NCBI RefSeq assembly: GCF_000411255.1
Contig: NZ_KE150412.1
Span: forward strand, 1,223,817 to 1,287,816
From: Paenibacillus sp. HGH0039
GTDB lineage: Bacteria > Bacillota > Bacilli > Paenibacillales > NBRC-103111
Direction: 5' to 3'
DNA length: 64,000 bases
A program made the translations under genes and the position numbers. Shown here piece by piece: positions 35,994 to 44,081 of the stretch (position 1 is its first letter; the number at the start of each line of letters is the position of its first letter). Under the pieces are notes generated by a model, which worked only from the letters and a program-made list of their open reading frames with translations, was not told where the DNA came from and searched no databases.

Positions 35994-36869
35994 TTATTCC
36001 GTTCCGTTTGTACTTTTCCCGCCGCCGGAGAGCTGCTTCAGCACACCCCGCAGGGCCGAGGCCGTCTGTTCGTACTTGATCCGGGCATTGAGATCGGTAG
36101 CGGAATTCGCAAACGTATCGAGATCTGCCGTGCATTGGCGGAGTGTGGAAATCAGCTCCACCTGTGGTTTCTCGAGACTGATTCCTCTTGTATCGTCATA
36201 CAAATCGACGTACAGCTTATTTTGATCGCCTATCTGAGCGAGAAAAACATTGTCCGCGGTCGCGTTTATTTTAGCCAATTGTTTATTCAGCCATTCCCTT
36301 GTAAGCGAGGAGGCCGACAGCTCGTCGTCATCGACTACCCCGTCCACGATGACCGTGTGGGGAAGCTTGTCCGGGCCCATCTTCAGCCCAAGGTCGCCGG
36401 GCGTAAGCGGCTGCTTCTCTTTTTTGAGCAGGACGCTGAGATCCCCGCTCGCTTCCAGCATGGCGAATTCGACGTCCGCCACCTGAAAAATACTCTTCGT
36501 GCGGAGCTGTTCCATCAGTTCGTCGGCCGTGTACCGCTCCTTCTTCAAATGATGTTCCAGAACACGTCCGTTACGGATGACGACTGTCCCTTTTCCTTCA
36601 AAAAAATGGCGGAGCCATTTGCTTTTCAGCGTCGTGAGTTCAAGGAGAAAAGGAACCACAAACCAAACCGCAAGCGCGGCAATCCCGTGCAAGTAATGGG
36701 CTTCAATATCGGTTGACAAGAAGCCTGCCAATTCTCCCAGGGTGATACCCGTTACATATTCAAAAAAAGAAAGCTGGGAAATTTGCTTTTTACCCAAAAT
36801 ACGGGTGATGGCAAAAAGCATGGCGATCGCACCGAGCGACCGCAACACAATGACTCCAATACCCTCCAC
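35994..36869 (-). CDS. DUF421 membrane protein with DUF1657-like tail (2Duf-like spore protein)
   Basis: A 291-residue protein with three N-terminal membrane segments (residues about 5-85) and the YetF/DUF421 soluble domain (VIRNGRVLEHHLKKERYTAD, VADVEFAMLEASGDLSVLLK, HTVIVDGVVDDDEL). The last 50 residues (VELISTLRQCTADLDTFANS) resemble DUF1657. A DUF421 plus DUF1657 fusion is the layout of 2Duf, a spore inner-membrane protein encoded in the spoVA-2mob operon that raises spore heat resistance. Here it is the first gene of the spoVAC-AD-AE operon. The start is GTG 36869 after AGAGGAGG. The DUF1657 match is by eye only. Confidence 0.8.
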   Translation of the reverse strand: MEGIGVIVLRSLGAIAMLFAITRILGKKQISQLSFFEYVTGITLGELAGFLSTDIEAHYLHGIAALAVWFVVPFLLELTTLKSKWLRHFFEGKGTVVIRNGRVLEHHLKKERYTADELMEQLRTKSIFQVADVEFAMLEASGDLSVLLKKEKQPLTPGDLGLKMGPDKLPHTVIVDGVVDDDELSASSLTREWLNKQLAKINATADNVFLAQIGDQNKLYVDLYDDTRGISLEKPQVELISTLRQCTADLDTFANSATDLNARIKYEQTASALRGVLKQLSGGGKSTNGTE

Positions 36870-36917
36870 GGCTTAGCCTCCTCTCTTAACCAGAGCAGTT
36901 GATTGCATGACTCTCCT

Positions 36918-36946
36918 TAGCATGTCCGCAAGGGGCACAGGTATGA
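36918..36946 (-). promoter_or_regulatory. Sigma-G-like promoter of the 2Duf-spoVA operon
   Basis: On the minus strand TCATA (36946-36942), 17 bp, CATGCTA (36924-36918). This is one mismatch in each element from the forespore sigma-G pattern GYATR-N16/18-CATAMTA. It lies about 50 bp before the first gene, whose products are forespore proteins. Confidence 0.55.
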
Positions 36947-36968
36947 AAGGAAGGCATTGGAAAAACAA

Positions 36969-36999
36969 GAAAACGGCTTCCTCAGCAGAAGCCGTTTTC
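36969..36999 (-). terminator. Terminator of the small hydrophobic peptide gene
   Basis: GAAAACGGCTTC-7-GAAGCCGTTTTC; on the minus strand it is followed by TTGTTTTTCC. It starts 13 bp after the stop of the 22-codon gene. Confidence 0.8.
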
Positions 37000-37012
37000 C
37001 GGTGATCCGTTA

Positions 37013-37081
37013 TCAGAAAAGAAACAAAATCGCCACAAGCAGTATAAACAAAACGAGTACAATCAGCATGTTCAGGTTCAC
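37013..37081 (-). CDS. 22-residue hydrophobic membrane peptide
   Basis: A very short gene in the 417-bp gap between the DUF421 gene and the giant repeat gene. It reads MNLNMLIVLVLFILLVAILF plus two residues from GTG 37081. AAGGAG lies eight bases upstream, a TATAAT-type -10 lies about 55 bp upstream (37142-37135 as CATATAAT), and a good terminator lies directly downstream. These four signs together argue it is real. The membrane stretch resembles the tail of YjcZ-family sporulation peptides (xxVLFILLxI), but the Gly/Tyr-rich head is missing, so the family is uncertain. The -35 is poor. Confidence 0.55.
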   Translation of the reverse strand: MNLNMLIVLVLFILLVAILFLF

Positions 37082-37221
37082 AGCCGTTTCTCCTTCAAGC
37101 GAGATTTCGAACATGGAACATTCAGGGATACCCCATTATATGCGTCTAGTGCCGCAAATGATTGTTCGGAAGGTGACGGACGATCCGCCTATTTTATAAA
37201 AAAAGGAGGCTTTCCCCCAGC

Positions 37222-37247
37222 ACAAACACACAGACGAACATAAGATA
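37222..37247 (+). promoter_or_regulatory. Sigma-K-like promoter of the giant repeat gene
   Basis: AC (37222-37223), 15 bp, CATAAGATA (37239-37247), which fits the mother-cell sigma-K pattern AC-N16-CATANNNTA with a spacer one base short. The implied start is about 33 bases before the TTG. No sigma-A promoter is seen here. Confidence 0.55.
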
Positions 37248-37286
37248 AAAGGCAAATATCCAAAAATTAGAAGGAGGAACTTCCTC

Positions 37287-37916
37287 TTGTCTTTTCCCAG
37301 CGACAGTCAATTTTTTCCCGTGACTTTAAACGGCGTTCCCGTAGGCGATCCGGTTGCGGATGTGAGTCCGGCCAGCACGGATATCGTCGGGAATGCCCAG
37401 TTCCCCGCCGCTTACGTTTCATACGACACGATTTATGTCTATTTCCGTCTGAGGCTGAACGGAGACCCCCGCGCCAAAACCGGGTTCGATAACTTTGCCT
37501 GGGGGGTTCTTTTCAATACCGACAACAATCCCGCCACTTACGAATGGGTTCTTGCCGTCAACGGCCAGAATGCCAGTATCGATCTCATCGAAAATAAAAT
37601 AAAAGTGCCGAACACCTTTAACGACCCGGCCGAAGGCATTGACGGAAAAGGGACGCCGGCCTATACGCGCCCGATTATTAATTTCGATCTGGCGCGGGTG
37701 AAGCCGACCGGCGACGGGTCCCGTTTCGGCGGAAATGAAAATTATTTTCTCGATTTTTTCATACCGGCTTCCGTCCTGTTCGGAGCGCTCGGGATTACGA
37801 GTCAGACGCCTCTCCAGTTTATTTTTTTCAGCTCCGCCAACAATAACAACTTCAACAAAGATTTTCTGATTCCCGCAGGCAGCACGTTCACCTCGGGTTT
37901 CAGCGATCCCGTTGCG
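37287..37916 (+). other. N-terminal beta domain of the giant protein
   Basis: Codons 1-210, distinct from the repeats. Features are aromatic-rich strands, a Gly/Asn/Phe-rich stretch (FFSSANNNNFNKDFLIPAGS) and no secretion signal at the first residues SFPSDSQFFPVTLNG. Similar to no repeat unit; resemblance to CBM9-type domains is by eye. Confidence 0.45.
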
Positions 37917-40900
37917 CCTCAAGGGTTTAACGCGCAGGCCAGACTCGTCCTGACCAAAACCTTGACCTCTTCGCCGGGAGCGGCCGTCCTGACCGGACAG
38001 GTGGCATCGTATACGGGGACCCTCGCGATATCGAACCAGGGGAAAAGCCAGGCCAACGCCGTGCTGATTACCGATGCGTTAGGACTGGACACGGTGTCCT
38101 CCCTGACCGTCTCCGGCGTTACCCAGGGCCTCTCCACGGTTAATCTGCTGGGCAGCACAATCAGTTGGAACGCGGGAAATCTTGCACCCGGCCAAACTGT
38201 GACACTGACCTTTACCGTGCAGGGAGCTTTCCTGACTGCCGGAGACGGCAGCCGCATCCTGAATACGGCCGCGGGAACCGGATTCGACAGTCTGACCGGA
38301 CAGGTGATTACAGCCGGACCGGCAACGAACTCTATTGCCGTCGTAACGGCGGGAGGCGTCACGGGCACCGTATACAACGGGATGACCGCACTGCCCCTTG
38401 CCGGCGCCGCCTTGCAGCTTACAAACGCCCAGAATCAGGTGCCCGTTAACCAAACGAGTGGAACCGGAGGGGCGTACGGCTTTTCCAATCTGGTACCGGG
38501 AACTTATAATCTCACGGTTTCTTTTGCCGGATTCGTTGCCCAAACCGTATCTGTAACGGTTAACGCCGGGACCGTCACTCCGCTGGACATCACCCTGCGG
38601 CCCCAGCCGGCTTCTCTGAGCGGAACCGTTGCGGATCAGGCGGGAAACGCGCTTCCCGGAGCCGTTATCCGCGTCAAATCCCCGTTCGGCGCCATCGTCG
38701 CCGAAACGACTGCCGACGCGGCGGGACAATACCAGCTCTCGGTTCCCGCCGGAACGTATACCGTAATCGCGACTGCGAACGGCTTCCAGTCCGAGGTTCG
38801 TACCCTGCAGCTTCAGCCGGCGCAAAGCGTATCCGCTTCGTTTAACCTTGCGGCTCTGCCGGGTACCGTAAACGGCGTGATCACCGTCTCCGGCACAGGA
38901 ACTCCACTTGCCGGAGCGCTCGTAGAAGCGTTAAACGAACGAGGCCAGCAGATCGCTGCCGCCGTCAGTGCCGCGGACGGGTCGTATGCGATAAACAGCC
39001 TCGCGCCGGGCAATTACCGCATCCGCGCAAGCGAAGCCGCATTCACGACGGATATTGCCGGAGCGGCGGTCCGCGCGGGTCAGACGGCAACCGTCAATAT
39101 CGGCTTAAGCCCTGCTCCGGGCACGCTTACCGGCCAGGTAACGGATGCTTTGTCCGGTGTACCGTTAAGCGGCGCCGTCGTCCGTGTCGTCACGGTTGAA
39201 GGGATAACCGCGGCAACCACGGTAACCGATGCCGGAGGAACTTACGTCATCAACAGTCTGCAGCCAACCAATTATACGGTCACGTTCAGCGAAACAGCGT
39301 ATGCCAGCCAGACGACAGGCGTTTCGATTGCGCCCGGCGCCCAAAGCGTGCTGAATATCGCGCTGCAGCAGTTGGCGGGCTCCATTACCGGAATGGTGAC
39401 GGACCTGAACGGGAATCCTCTGGAAAATGCGGTGGTCCGCGTTTTCATGAACAGTTTTGTCGTCGCCACGCTGAATGCCGACCAGAACGGACGGTTCGAC
39501 ATTCACGGGCTCGCTCCCGGTTCCTACACGGTCCGTGCCGAAACACCGGGTTACCAGCGCCAACTGATCGGCGCCTTCATCCAGCCCGGAGAAATTGTTG
39601 AGGTCGATTTCGCCCTGGCTCCTCAGCCCGGCACTTTAACGGGAACCGTTACAGCGGGGACGTCGCCCGTATCGGGAGCGGTCCTCGTGGTGCGTCAGAC
39701 GGACAACAGTGTAATCGGGCGGACGATTACTTCCGCCGACGGCACTTACGTACTGGAGGAGCTGGCGCCGGGAACTTATACGGCTGCCGTTTTTGCCGAC
39801 GGGCTCCAGACTCAGATTAAAGGTTTCAGTATAACCGCCGGACAGACGACCACCGTTTCCTTTAACCTGGAGCCTTTACCGGGGATTGTTGCCGGAACCG
39901 TATACAACGCCTCCACTAACCAGCTCCTTGCGGATATTCCCGTTGCGGTACGCATTGTGGACACGAACGGACTTGTGATCCAGAGTTTGTTTACGGACCA
40001 GTTCGGCGCATTTACGGCTCCTAACCTGGCACCCGGCAGTTACACGACGATCGTGTCCTCCACTGACTTTCAGACGAATCTCGTCAGCTTCCTGATCGCC
40101 GCCGGACAGACAACGACGATCCGCGTGAGTCTGATTCCGAGCCCCGGACAGATCAGCGGAACGGTAACCGCCGCGGGAACGGACACGGGCATTTCCGGCG
40201 CCTCCGTCCGGATCAGCAACTATACGGGGACGCTGATCACTACCGCTCTTACCGACAGCAGCGGTTATTTCAGGGCAGAGGGCCTGGCTCCCGACACGTA
40301 CATCGTCACGGCTTCCCAAACGGGCTTCCAGCAGGGGAGCATCGGAGCCATTGTGAGCTCCGGTCAAACGACGACCACCGGTCTCAGCCTGCTCCCGTTT
40401 CCCGGATCGGTCAGCGGTGCGGTCTCCCCCGCCGTGGACGGGACCGTGATCCAGATTTACGACCGGAACAATCTGCTGATCAACGAAGAGCTGGTGACCG
40501 CGGGGAACGGGACGTTCCGATTCGATTCGCTCGCGCCGGGCGCCTATATCGTGACGGCAACACCGCCCGGCTACGCCTTAGCGAAAGCGGGCACAGTCGT
40601 GGAAGCCGGCCGGGAATCAAGCGTGTCGCTTACTCTCTCCCCGCTGTTGTCGGTTCTTACGGGCCGCATCACGGATACCGCGGGCAGCCCTTTAGATACC
40701 GCCGTCATCCGGATCTTGGACGGGAATGAAACCTTGCTGGGAACGGGTCATGCCGATGCAAACGGCGCTTATGTCGTCGACAACATTCCCGCAGGCAATC
40801 ATTTTCTTGTGGCTGCGGCTCCCGGATTCTCGACCGTTGTCCTTGGCGTCGCAACCCTCCCCGGTGTGGATTTGACGGGAATCGATATCCGCCTCGTCCC

Positions 40901-42998
40901 CGATTCCGGGTCCGTCAGCGGTCAAATAACGAACGCTTCGGACGGGAGCCCGCTTCCTTCCGCTACTGTATTGATCCGCAGCGCGGACGTGAGCAACCTT
41001 CTTATTGCGACAGCTACCAGTTCCCTGTTCGGCAATTTCTTCGTAAGCGGTCTGTCTCCGGGTGCTTATACCGTGGTTGCGGAAGCGGAGGGATTCGCGG
41101 CAGGCACGGCCGGAGCCATCGTGGTCAGCGATCAGGAAACGGCAGCCAGTCTGGCTCTCCGGCCCCTAAGCGGCGTAGTAACGGGCAGCATAACGGACCG
41201 CTCGGGCGCTATCCTGACCGGTTCGGAAATCCAGATCAAGATCTTCAACGAAGCGGGGATTCTCCTGTTCGCTTACCTGGCCGATGCAGACGGGCGCTTT
41301 ACAACGCCGGAGCTGGCGCCCGGCAACTATGTCCTTACGGCATCCGCTCCGGGCTTCGCTTCCGCCTCCGTGCTCGCCGCGGTCACTGCCGGTTCGACGG
41401 GCACCGTTACGCTCGTTTTGACCCAGCAAAATTCGCTTCTGACCGGCAATGTCATCAACCGGAACGGATCCGCTCCCGTGCCCGGAAGCATTGTCACTCT
41501 GCTGAACGCGGCCGGTCAGACGGTCGATCAATCGGTTTCCGATCTGAGCGGAAATTTTACGATCGACAACGTAACCGCCGGTGCCTATACGCTGAGCGTT
41601 ACCTGTGACGGTTTCGGCAGCACCTCCCTCGGTGTCGTGCTCCGGCCCGGGCAAACGACGGCCGTCACCGTCCCGCTGGAGCCGTCACCCGGCAGTGTCA
41701 GCGGCTTCGTCATCGACCGTGTTACTTCGGCCCCCCTGGCGGGAGCGGACGTCCGGATCGAAGATGCGGCCGGTGTGCCGGTTAATACGGTTCAAACCGA
41801 CAGCAGCGGGTTTTATCTCTTCAATAATCTCAGTTCCGGAGATTATAAAGTGACAGCCGAAGCGGCCGGTTTCGGCTCGCAAAACGGCGGTGCTCCGGTA
41901 GCTCCCGGACGGAACACCGATTACAGCTTTGCCTTGATCCCGCTGCCTGCTTCTCTATCCGGCACGGTGAGTAGCGCAGCCGGCGCCAGGCCTCTTGCCG
42001 GTGTCCTTGTGGAAGTCCGCCAGCTCAACACATACGGCACTGTCCTAACGGATACGACGACCGATGCGGCCGGCCGTTATACGCTGGGCGGCCTTCCTCC
42101 CGGCAATTACACGGCCGTGTTCAGCCTATCGGGCTTCGGACAGCAGACAGACGCCTTTTATGCCGCCCCCGGGCAAAATACGGTCGTGGACGCCCGGTTG
42201 TCTCCGACGTCAAACGATTTGAACGGGACGGTCGTGACACCGCCAACCGTTCCCGTGTTTCCGCCACCCCCGGTGGTGGACGTCTACGACGACCGGAATA
42301 CGCCGGTCGTGACGGTCCCGACGGACCCGTCCGGGCAGTTCACGGCTGACGGGATAGCCGCGGGCGACTACACGGTCGTCGTGCAGAAGCCCGGCCTGTC
42401 GTACAGCCAGCAGGTTGTAACGGTGGTCCCCGGCTTTGCCCCGAATGTCGTCCTCTCCCCGGGGAGCCCGTCGCTTGCCGTTACGGGCGCCGTTCTGGAC
42501 GAATCGACCGGCAATCCGGTTCCGGGCGCCTCCGTCCAGATTCTGAACGAGAATTTAACGCCGGTCGACCGGACGCTAGCCGACGGAACGGGTGTGTTCC
42601 TGCTGGGCAGCCTGCGCCCCGGAAGTTACACGGTTACCGTATCCAGCGAGCTCTTCGGCTCCAAGTCGGCCGCAGTTTCCCTGGCTGCCGGAACTCCGGC
42701 TCCCCCTGTAAACGTGGCGTTGAACCCTTTGTTCGGCACTTTGACGGGCACGGTGACGGACAGGAACGGACGGCTCTTATCCAACGTGTTCGTTCAGCTC
42801 TTCGATCCTTCCGGGCTCTTCCTGAGAAGTGTGACGACCAGTACCCGGGGCGTGTATACGGTCACTAATCTGGCCCCCGGCTTCTACTCCGCGCGCTTCA
42901 CGCTCGAAGACAAACAACCGGCCGTGCGCACACTGATCATCGCCGCGAATGAAACGACCGTTCTAAATGTCGTCCTGGAGGACGATACGGAGGAATAA
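37287..42998 (+). CDS. Giant 18-repeat carboxypeptidase-regulatory-like surface protein
   Basis: A 1903-residue protein and the only long plus-strand gene between 20 and 60 kb. Residues 1 to about 210 form a beta-rich domain (FDNFAWGVLFNTDNNPATYEW; ENYFLDFFIPASVLFGALG) reminiscent of CBM9/DOMON folds. About 215-350 is DUF11-like (VASYTGTLAISNQGKSQANA, LAPGQTVTLTFTV). From about 352 to the end come some 18 tandem repeats of 80-89 residues with the pattern SGTVTD..G.PL.GA.V, TDA.G.Y....L.PG.Y.V, matching CarboxypepD_reg-like beta-sandwiches. There is no signal peptide, LPXTG, S-layer or membrane segment, and only one cysteine (repeat 13). The start is TTG 37287 with AGGAGG nine bases before it. 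The sigma-K-like promoter and spore-gene neighbours suggest a spore coat or exosporium protein; this is inference. Confidence 0.85.
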   Translation: MSFPSDSQFFPVTLNGVPVGDPVADVSPASTDIVGNAQFPAAYVSYDTIYVYFRLRLNGDPRAKTGFDNFAWGVLFNTDNNPATYEWVLAVNGQNASIDLIENKIKVPNTFNDPAEGIDGKGTPAYTRPIINFDLARVKPTGDGSRFGGNENYFLDFFIPASVLFGALGITSQTPLQFIFFSSANNNNFNKDFLIPAGSTFTSGFSDPVAPQGFNAQARLVLTKTLTSSPGAAVLTGQVASYTGTLAISNQGKSQANAVLITDALGLDTVSSLTVSGVTQGLSTVNLLGSTISWNAGNLAPGQTVTLTFTVQGAFLTAGDGSRILNTAAGTGFDSLTGQVITAGPATNSIAVVTAGGVTGTVYNGMTALPLAGAALQLTNAQNQVPVNQTSGTGGAYGFSNLVPGTYNLTVSFAGFVAQTVSVTVNAGTVTPLDITLRPQPASLSGTVADQAGNALPGAVIRVKSPFGAIVAETTADAAGQYQLSVPAGTYTVIATANGFQSEVRTLQLQPAQSVSASFNLAALPGTVNGVITVSGTGTPLAGALVEALNERGQQIAAAVSAADGSYAINSLAPGNYRIRASEAAFTTDIAGAAVRAGQTATVNIGLSPAPGTLTGQVTDALSGVPLSGAVVRVVTVEGITAATTVTDAGGTYVINSLQPTNYTVTFSETAYASQTTGVSIAPGAQSVLNIALQQLAGSITGMVTDLNGNPLENAVVRVFMNSFVVATLNADQNGRFDIHGLAPGSYTVRAETPGYQRQLIGAFIQPGEIVEVDFALAPQPGTLTGTVTAGTSPVSGAVLVVRQTDNSVIGRTITSADGTYVLEELAPGTYTAAVFADGLQTQIKGFSITAGQTTTVSFNLEPLPGIVAGTVYNASTNQLLADIPVAVRIVDTNGLVIQSLFTDQFGAFTAPNLAPGSYTTIVSSTDFQTNLVSFLIAAGQTTTIRVSLIPSPGQISGTVTAAGTDTGISGASVRISNYTGTLITTALTDSSGYFRAEGLAPDTYIVTASQTGFQQGSIGAIVSSGQTTTTGLSLLPFPGSVSGAVSPAVDGTVIQIYDRNNLLINEELVTAGNGTFRFDSLAPGAYIVTATPPGYALAKAGTVVEAGRESSVSLTLSPLLSVLTGRITDTAGSPLDTAVIRILDGNETLLGTGHADANGAYVVDNIPAGNHFLVAAAPGFSTVVLGVATLPGVDLTGIDIRLVPDSGSVSGQITNASDGSPLPSATVLIRSADVSNLLIATATSSLFGNFFVSGLSPGAYTVVAEAEGFAAGTAGAIVVSDQETAASLALRPLSGVVTGSITDRSGAILTGSEIQIKIFNEAGILLFAYLADADGRFTTPELAPGNYVLTASAPGFASASVLAAVTAGSTGTVTLVLTQQNSLLTGNVINRNGSAPVPGSIVTLLNAAGQTVDQSVSDLSGNFTIDNVTAGAYTLSVTCDGFGSTSLGVVLRPGQTTAVTVPLEPSPGSVSGFVIDRVTSAPLAGADVRIEDAAGVPVNTVQTDSSGFYLFNNLSSGDYKVTAEAAGFGSQNGGAPVAPGRNTDYSFALIPLPASLSGTVSSAAGARPLAGVLVEVRQLNTYGTVLTDTTTDAAGRYTLGGLPPGNYTAVFSLSGFGQQTDAFYAAPGQNTVVDARLSPTSNDLNGTVVTPPTVPVFPPPPVVDVYDDRNTPVVTVPTDPSGQFTADGIAAGDYTVVVQKPGLSYSQQVVTVVPGFAPNVVLSPGSPSLAVTGAVLDESTGNPVPGASVQILNENLTPVDRTLADGTGVFLLGSLRPGSYTVTVSSELFGSKSAAVSLAAGTPAPPVNVALNPLFGTLTGTVTDRNGRLLSNVFVQLFDPSGLFLRSVTTSTRGVYTVTNLAPGFYSARFTLEDKQPAVRTLIIAANETTVLNVVLEDDTEE
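38341..42998 (+). repeat. About 18 degenerate tandem protein repeats (about 86 codons each)
   Basis: Units begin with an S/T-x-S/T-G-x-V/I motif, for example ASLSGTVADQAGNALPGAVI, TLTGTVTAGTSPVSGAVL, SVSGQITNASDGSPLPSATV and TLTGTVTDRNGRLLSNVFVQ, and each has a L-x-PG-x-Y segment. The copies differ widely in DNA and protein sequence, so the array is old, not a recent slippage product. Unit 16 has an unusual proline run (VFPPPPVVDVYD). Confidence 0.85.
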
Positions 42999-43006
42999 AC
43001 GAATCA

Positions 43007-43048
43007 CACAAAAATCCCCGCCGGGTTTCTCCGGCGGGGATTTTTGTG
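43007..43048. terminator. Bidirectional terminator, 18-bp perfect stem
   Basis: CACAAAAATCCCCGCCGG, 6-base loop, CCGGCGGGGATTTTTGTG. It serves the giant gene (stop at 42998) on the plus strand and the converging CDF gene on the minus strand. Confidence 0.93.
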
Positions 43049-43094
43049 ATCTTTTCTACGGTTTAAAAGGTTTAAACGATTCGATTGGAGGCCG

Positions 43095-44081
43095 TTACCG
43101 GTTGGCGGTAGGCACCCAGTCCTTCACGCCGTTATCTTCGAGAATTCCCAGCGTGACGTCCGCGATATCGGGGTCTCCCAGCAGCTTGTCGCGCACACGG
43201 AATTTGATATCGTCCGCTTCGGCAAGCGTCAGGCCCGGTTTCAGTTCGATCAAGCCTTCCACATGGTAGTACCGGCCTTCCTGAAGAACGCGCAGCTGAT
43301 AAATGTCCGTCACCAGCGTTTCGGAAAAAATAATCCCGGACACCTTGTCCTCCACGTCGGGAGGCGCGGATACGCCGATCAGGCCGACCATATTGTCGTA
43401 GCCGACGCGGAACGCGACGAATATCATAAGCAAACCGATCAGGATAGTCATCAGTCCGTCAAGGGCGCTGAAATTCGTAAGCGAGGTAACCACTACCGCA
43501 ATAAGAGCCAGCAGAGCACCCGTAGTCGCAACCAGATCTTCGTAGAAAACGAGCCGCGTCGGAGGGGCCGCACGTTTCACATGTTTGAAGGAAGCTTTGA
43601 CGATTCCAAAACCGGACGCTTCCGCCCTGGACTCTTTGATGACCTCCTTCATCGCCTTGTACAGCACGTAGCCGTCAATCACGATCGACAGGATCAGAAC
43701 CGAAAGATTCAGCCAAAATCCGTGTGATTCGGCCGGATGCTGCAGCAGGTGCAGCCCTTCTCTTATCGTTTCGTAGGCCATGAAGGTGACGACGAGAACC
43801 GCAATCATGCAGAAAATATTGATGACGCGGCCGAAACCCGTCGGAAATCGGCGGGTCGCCTTTTTCTCCGCAAGTACGCTTCCGGTAAATACGAACATCT
43901 GGTTGACGGCATCCGCAATGGAGTGCATGGTGGATGCGAACATGGCACCGCTGCCCGTGAGCGAAGCGGCGACACCTTTTACGATAGCAATAATCGTATT
44001 GCCCAAGGCCGCCGTAGCCGAAGACATATTGCCTTTCTTGATCAACTCCAACCAATTCGTGCGTTCAGCATCCGGGTCCAT
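43095..44081 (-). CDS. Cation diffusion facilitator (CDF) transporter
   Basis: A 328-residue CDF antiporter that exports a divalent cation. It has six expected membrane segments. Metal-site residues are visible as the HSIADAVNQ His-x3-Asp in segment 2 and FYEDLVATTGALLAL in segment 5. A C-terminal cytosolic ferredoxin-like domain (RYYHVEGLIELKPGLTLAEA) follows. The metal (Zn, Co, Fe, Mn) cannot be told from this. I chose ATG 44081 (MDPDAERTNWLELIKKG) with AGGAGG twelve bases before it; in-frame codons up to 44231 overlap a structured leader. Confidence 0.88.
   Translation of the reverse strand: MDPDAERTNWLELIKKGNMSSATAALGNTIIAIVKGVAASLTGSGAMFASTMHSIADAVNQMFVFTGSVLAEKKATRRFPTGFGRVINIFCMIAVLVVTFMAYETIREGLHLLQHPAESHGFWLNLSVLILSIVIDGYVLYKAMKEVIKESRAEASGFGIVKASFKHVKRAAPPTRLVFYEDLVATTGALLALIAVVVTSLTNFSALDGLMTILIGLLMIFVAFRVGYDNMVGLIGVSAPPDVEDKVSGIIFSETLVTDIYQLRVLQEGRYYHVEGLIELKPGLTLAEADDIKFRVRDKLLGDPDIADVTLGILEDNGVKDWVPTANR

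Follow-up and report, generated by a model that had tools for sequence, protein, structure and literature searches.

A leaderless giant repeat protein of Paenibacillus as a probable spore-surface fibre with a new N-terminal domain

We analysed a stretch of 64,000 nucleotides from Paenibacillus sp. HGH0039 (contig NZ_KE150412.1, positions 1,223,817 to 1,287,816; hereafter the window), which carries a gene for a giant repeat protein. An earlier note on this DNA had suggested that the protein is a long, unsecreted fibre of the spore surface. Our analysis makes it probable that the protein is made in the mother cell and forms a spore-surface fibre anchored by its N-terminal domain. The gene and its parts are as follows.

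37287–42998, plus strand: gene of the leaderless repeat protein, 1903 amino acids (aa), TTG start (open reading frame (ORF) translation, Pfam)
37287–37934, plus strand: N-terminal domain, residues 1–216, which defines the family by the matches of relatives and has a putative anchoring or targeting role
37947–38285, plus strand: DUF11 domain, residues 221–333 (Pfam PF01345; AlphaFold model with pLDDT mostly >75)
38358–42983, plus strand: 18 CarboxypepD_reg (transthyretin-like) repeats, residues 358–1899, spaced by ~86 aa (Pfam and our own repeat model)
42978–42995, plus strand: acidic C-terminal tail EDDTEE (sequence comparison)
37239–37247, plus strand: CATAAGATA, a sigma-K-like -10 box (CATANNNTA) (upstream sequence)
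37271–37277, plus strand: Shine-Dalgarno sequence AAGGAGG (upstream sequence)
43010–43045, no strand given: terminator-like palindrome 3' of the giant gene (read from the sequence, no tool scan)

Pfam placed 18 stretches in PF13620 (CarboxypepD_reg; 771.5 bits, cut-off 32.3), our own model likewise counted 18 repeats, and PF01345 scored 28.4 bits in one stretch (cut-off 24.6). The 24 Pfam matches of the protein at E ≤ 0.01 included no collagen family, DUF4183 or SLH. Residues 1–216 alone matched no NCBIfam or Pfam family at the same threshold, and when this domain and 19 relatives were scanned against Pfam, 0/20 matched. The protein has no membrane segment (highest Kyte-Doolittle mean over 19 residues, 1.92), no LPxTG anchor and, by hydropathy alone, no signal peptide, the first 25 residues being free of Lys and Arg and the 12-residue maximum within the first 60 being 1.15. 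Six of 21 relatives do contain LPxTG strings, all apparently internal to the chain (positions unverified). The window protein contains a single Cys, and Lys and Cys account for 0.84% and 0.05% of its residues, versus 5.7% and 0.57% for 20 further genes from the window. ORF translation, Pfam and hydropathy thus confirmed the gene as first described, including its length, TTG start, DUF11 domain, 18 repeats, one Cys, and lack of a signal, anchor or membrane segment.

The N-terminal domain had matches in 8 of 104 genomes of a family sample (five strong), 37 of 392 genomes of an order sample (21 at E <1e-30) and 18 of 398 genomes of a class sample (16 strong). In a phylum sample of 398 genomes, for which the query included DUF11 besides the N-terminal domain, seven matched, and only the source genome and G544 were strong on the N-terminal domain. 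The domain was the best-conserved part of the protein in three of four relatives compared and about equal to the rest in the fourth (49–98% identity). Members include P. chitinolyticus (N-terminal domain 98% identical), P. oenotherae, P. lupini, P. plantiphilus, P. cellulosilyticus, two further Paenibacillus, one Paenibacillaceae metagenome-assembled genome (MAG) and six Priestia megaterium plasmids. Outside Bacillota, a MAG labelled Polyangiaceae holds a distant relative of the domain (L024:6397-7002, 33% identity). The domain had no match in a phage collection, and a phage origin was rejected. A literature search over titles and abstract openings, with subscription papers outside its scope, found no description of the giant-protein family among the papers listed.

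The lack of an export route, already pointed out in the earlier note, is shared by the family: the N-terminal domain begins at, or at most two codons from, the start codon in 35/35 loci read (27 and 8 in two sets, near-identical loci counted and L072, whose start is lost, excluded). Because the leaderless start is kept in all of them, the data support the missing signal as a family trait and not a missed start. The alternative that the protein is an ordinary secreted one with an overlooked exported N-terminus, which the earlier note had named as grounds for refutation, gains something from the 29 further codons that are open in frame upstream of the TTG. These codons contain no ATG, GTG or TTG, however, and a good Shine-Dalgarno sequence fits the TTG, so that an exported N-terminus upstream was rejected. 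The upstream frame also varies among relatives, with no hydrophobic segment apparent by eye; start codons of strong loci are ATG, GTG or TTG, and many relatives have ATG at the same place. We therefore regard a missed N-terminus as very improbable.

Signal-peptide-like leaders were present in six examined distant relatives of the N-terminal domain (L009, L014, L015, L073, L090 and L091; E ~1e-3 to 1e-14). They lend some weight to a second alternative, namely that the protein is an adhesin of the vegetative surface or biofilm matrix which leaves the cell signal-free, by lysis or an unknown route. The repeats and DUF11, domains that exported fibrillar adhesins typically carry, favour it too. The leaderless start of the 35 loci speaks against an adhesin, as does the finding that, where a match occurred without SpoIVA (G157, G684 and G726), it was of the exported kind. 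Together with the spore-gene contexts in other genomes described below, this leaves an adhesin unlikely.

SpoIVA was present in 22/22 genomes with a strong match, and in the class sample strong matches occurred in 16/268 SpoIVA-positive and 0/130 SpoIVA-negative genomes (p 0.0015), counts that assume the same 398 genomes in both samplings, in which all 18 matching genomes recur. The genome G125 has a distant match, with its leader unread, and also has SpoIVA.

Gene contexts in other organisms also point, circumstantially, to outer spore layers. On the Priestia megaterium plasmids, of which four of the six with a match were read, genes annotated as wecB, polysaccharide biosynthesis and SDR follow the giant gene on the same strand in 4/4, with glycosyltransferases and a sulfotransferase near them. 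In P-NA14 domain matches bore out the annotation of these three genes (Epimerase_2, Polysacc_synt_2 and RmlD-like). Beyond the sugar cluster, ~14 kb from the giant gene, this plasmid has two genes with a CotX/V domain (148 and 149 bits; cut-off 27). Two genes annotated as spore coat protein lie ~19–24 kb from the giant gene on pBMG2; on the other two plasmids no such annotation occurs in the part covered. The annotation of HT517 splits the giant gene into three. Plasmids of P. megaterium are known to carry exosporium genes (PMC4674009), and the four plasmids read here are from strains other than the one in that paper. In three Paenibacillaceae-type loci, L062, L070 and L072, the giant gene is followed, at 99, 21 and 18 bp respectively, by a same-strand ORF with two LysM domains and GH18; one of these ORFs was scanned and exceeds the TIGR02899 (SafA/ExsA) threshold (76.2 bits, cut-off 67.85). 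In G544, which belongs to another class, sigG (502.9 bits, cut-off 457) is 1.9 kb away from a relative of 372 aa, and the interval holds two genes with a SipL/SPOCS domain, of which only one exceeds the Pfam cut-off. This relative comprises the N-terminal domain, one repeat (32.2 bits vs a cut-off of 32.3) and a Cys-rich tail.

The upstream regions gave a mixed picture as to mother-cell (sigma-E/K) transcription. The motif CATANNNTA occurred within 150 bp upstream in 9/24 loci, compared with 13/219 control ORF upstreams (Fisher p 4e-5), and 300 resampled control sets gave a mean of 1.7 and a maximum of 6. The set of 24 was without the near-duplicates L010, L059 and L053 and the start-less L072, and includes both the window and L011, which are of one genus; the controls were mechanical ORFs of ≥150 aa, not curated genes. 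Three of five further loci, counted without the near-duplicates L115, L119 and L121, carried the motif (Fisher p 0.003), and the combined sets, with one of window and L011 dropped, gave 11/28 (p 5e-6). Of the sigma-K-like promoter proposed in the earlier note, the -10 box thus stood, being present in the window and enriched across the family, and the -35 element did not, being weak. No sigma-70 promoter-like site was found in 36850–37350, which would tell against an adhesin, but with a chance expectation of only 0.5 sites this carries little weight. Five loci without the motif (L060, L061, L064, L065 and L021) are preceded by another conserved block, CATATACATGGAAATAGTAT or close to it, perhaps a further sporulation promoter. 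In the same five genomes the contig breaks off at most ~1 kb before the gene, which looks like the effect of a repeat common to them at that place. In the window, a perfect palindrome, GAGGAACTTCCTC, at 37274–37286 overlaps the Shine-Dalgarno sequence. Its counterpart in L011, GAGGAGGCTCCTC, is altered on both arms; a hairpin hiding the ribosome site may therefore be conserved in the genus.

The terminator palindrome lies directly behind the giant gene, which therefore appears to form its own transcription unit. Rfam had no match in 36800–43200. The acidic character of the C-terminal tail was found in 16/16 compared proteins of 18 repeats.

The earlier note had proposed AlphaFold models of both the N-terminus and the repeats, and only the latter gave a clear result. 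A four-repeat model (residues 441–790) was confident and all beta (mean pLDDT 92.7, pTM 0.60) and was closest to prealbumin-type adhesin stalks, with the TIE protein of B. anthracis (6fwv) as its best match in the Protein Data Bank (PDB), a likeness that fits an adhesin too. The model of residues 1–350 was weak (mean pLDDT 70.3, several N-terminal stretches <50). Its VIA-align rows landed on the DUF11 part (217–350), its Foldseek rows were low-scoring, and a profile search of PDB sequences with the N-terminal domain reached only E ~1 at best, so that no fold was assigned to this domain. Lys was found within the first 12 residues in 0/18 window repeats, 4/18 repeats of L021 and 14/80 of L075, and 10/18 window repeats are free of Lys throughout. 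Isopeptide cross-links of the CnaB type were rejected for the window repeats, which lack the early Lys; the Lys of DUF11 is not kept in all relatives.

The number of repeats is constant over much of the family. Among 21 full-length proteins, 16 have 18 repeats (lengths 1888–1940) and three, all of genus g339, have 21. The count excludes L010, L059, L061, L064 and L065 (full length, uncounted), L013/L023 (cut off where a contig ends) and, as broken copies, L057, L062, L070, L071 and L072. Two giants complete the series: a protein of 74 repeats and 6765 aa in a genome of family f12 (gene of 20.3 kb, L113:8304 to L114:8601), with 63/74 repeats free of any Lys, and one of 80 repeats and 7366 aa on the P. 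megaterium plasmid pBMG2 (gene of 22.1 kb, L075:899-22999). Family f12 was tentatively placed in Bacillaceae by its proximity to Bacillus-like genomes, not by a name. In a positional test with 10 of the 20 other proteins, the window repeats found their best match at the same position in 18, 15, 11, 12, 10, 13, 9 and 10 of 18 cases for eight proteins with 18 or 21 repeats and in 7/18 for each of the two giants (chance ~1). One branch has therefore kept an ancient array stable, whereas another has amplified it; TRF detected no DNA-level tandem repeat in the giant gene, which likewise indicates that the repeats are old. The repeat number may act as a length ruler.

A relic or selfish repeat gene, functionless in the source species, would accord with the broken copies (L057, L062, L070, L071 and L072) and with the clean absence of the gene from two congeners. 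The gene has, on the other hand, an intact frame of 1903 codons, open at identical length in two congeners at 94% and 88% identity, and 18 repeats are kept in 16 of the 21 proteins counted above. A relic is thus hardly probable. L062 retains the N-terminal domain only (227 aa).

Several observations weigh against a spore-surface fibre. The poorly modelled N-terminal fold is one, and the promoter is another: 15/24 upstream regions lack the -10 box, the box plus AC at 15–18 bp is found in only 3/24 (controls 2/219), the -35 element of the window gene is weak, and CATANNNTA was not found upstream of the Priestia and other Bacillaceae (f12) loci. The SpoIVA counts are linked by descent, as 14/16 class matches come from two genera and 12 from one. 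CotX-domain genes are shown for one plasmid only, and all three LysM-linked giant genes are truncated or frameshifted. The broken or truncated copies (or sequencing faults) and the 355/392 order-sample genomes without a match indicate that the gene is dispensable, and it seems to have been lost in several lineages. The gene neighbours in the source genus, from which the earlier note had argued, also lost their value. Next to the giant gene stands a DUF421/DUF1657 gene with SpoVAC (196 bits, cut-off 164) and SpoVAD (518.5 bits, cut-off 411.8) behind it, all three on the minus strand, and a cation-efflux gene stands on the other side. The spoVA neighbours are conserved in the genus. In G002 and G003, however, two of the four further genomes compared, only ~0.5 kb separates DUF421-SpoVAC-SpoVAD from the cation-efflux gene and the giant gene is missing; it is therefore accessory at this site, and we rejected the spoVA adjacency as evidence. 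In other genera the giant gene has other neighbours; at seven of these loci it adjoins genes that we take, by eye, to be purE-purK. In Paenibacillus sp. 32352 a second gene beside the giant gene (L012:3499-6303) encodes 934 aa with no apparent leader and five DUF11/TIGR01451 stretches (TIGR01451, 171.5 bits).

Spore repeat proteins of this general make are already known; what sets the family apart is the N-terminal domain, the stalk of CarboxypepD_reg repeats and the great length. As far as the accessible part of one paper goes (PMC5749712), DUF11-repeat spore proteins comprise the CRD/appendage proteins of Clostridium taeniosporum, for whose spore-protein genes sigma-K-like promoters were proposed, and CrdA, CrdB and CrdC of the B. 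cereus group. They share internal repeats and DUF11 with the window protein, which differs in having one DUF11 and another N-terminal domain, within a family of 18–80 CarboxypepD_reg repeats. The window protein has no match to TIGR01451 (B_ant_repeat) at E ≤ 0.01 in NCBIfam. F-Anchor-3 of Clostridium aceticum, a proposed tether of spore fibres to the exosporium, also has DUF11 domains but is built, in the text available, on DUF4183 and CsxA-like domains, and the window protein lacks DUF4183 (PMC11952670). The BclA-type nap, including BclA1 of P. megaterium, is described in the accessible part of its source as a long fibre with a forespore-localising N-terminal domain, plasmid-borne in P. megaterium (PMC4674009). 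The window family would resemble it as an extended fibre whose N-terminal domain is distinct from the stalk, and is likewise plasmid-borne in that species; BclA has a collagen-like stalk, whereas the window family has transthyretin-like beads. Gram-positive fibrillar adhesins and pilins (TIE, SdrD, BcpA and SpaA) have a similar rod of prealbumin/CnaB-like beads, but the window protein lacks their signal peptide, sortase motif and isopeptide Lys. Sporesilk, judging by a title alone, reportedly consists of auto-crosslinking protein fibres on endospores, whereas the window repeats are mostly without Lys. The top NCBIfam score of the window protein, obtained via the repeats, was to the Kustd1514-type S-layer glycoprotein (NF052345), at 291.3 bits vs a cut-off of 1400, which excludes membership. 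CpbA of B. laterosporus was dropped as a counterpart, being ~28 kDa and without mention of carboxypeptidase in its paper.

The spore-surface fibre may be pictured as follows. The protein would be synthesised late in sporulation in the cytoplasm of the mother cell, which already surrounds the forespore, so that a signal peptide would be unneeded. Residues 1–216 would dock on the outermost spore layer, and DUF11 and the 18 transthyretin-like repeats would project as a rod of fixed length. If one repeat adds 3.5–4.5 nm, the rod would measure roughly 60–80 nm with 18 repeats and 280–360 nm with 80. Because the rod is almost without Cys and Lys, few or no disulphides, CnaB isopeptide bonds or Gln-Lys cross-links are expected in it; the Thr-rich repeats and the adjacent Priestia sugar cluster suggest that the rod may be glycosylated. 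Lysis of the mother cell would expose a hairy, nap-like brush that could tune adhesion and wetting. A mother-cell product that stays cytoplasmic, as a parasporal body or a filler between coat and exosporium, shares the timing and leaderless evidence, yet the Lys/Cys-poor, Thr-rich beads and the Priestia sugar cluster would fit an exposed fibre better, and we judge such a product improbable, about as much so as an adhesin.

Beyond a spore-surface fibre in the source species, we tentatively suggest, at somewhat less than even expectation, an undescribed and widespread spore-surface brush. It would combine a new N-terminal anchoring module with a hardly crosslinkable transthyretin-like rod purged of Lys and Cys, its bead number of 18 (or 21) across genera serving as the length ruler; in Bacillaceae it would reach 74–80 beads, in Priestia on plasmids by a sugar cluster, with CotX crust genes on at least one.

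To our knowledge, the outer spore layer of Paenibacillaceae is poorly described. If correct, our reading would add to it a non-collagen surface filament without disulphides or isopeptide bonds, and the new N-terminal domain might be usable as an anchor for spore display. The family would offer a natural series of 18, 21, 74 and 80 beads for studying fibre length against spore adhesion, and would hint at one reason why some P. megaterium plasmids bear outer-spore genes.

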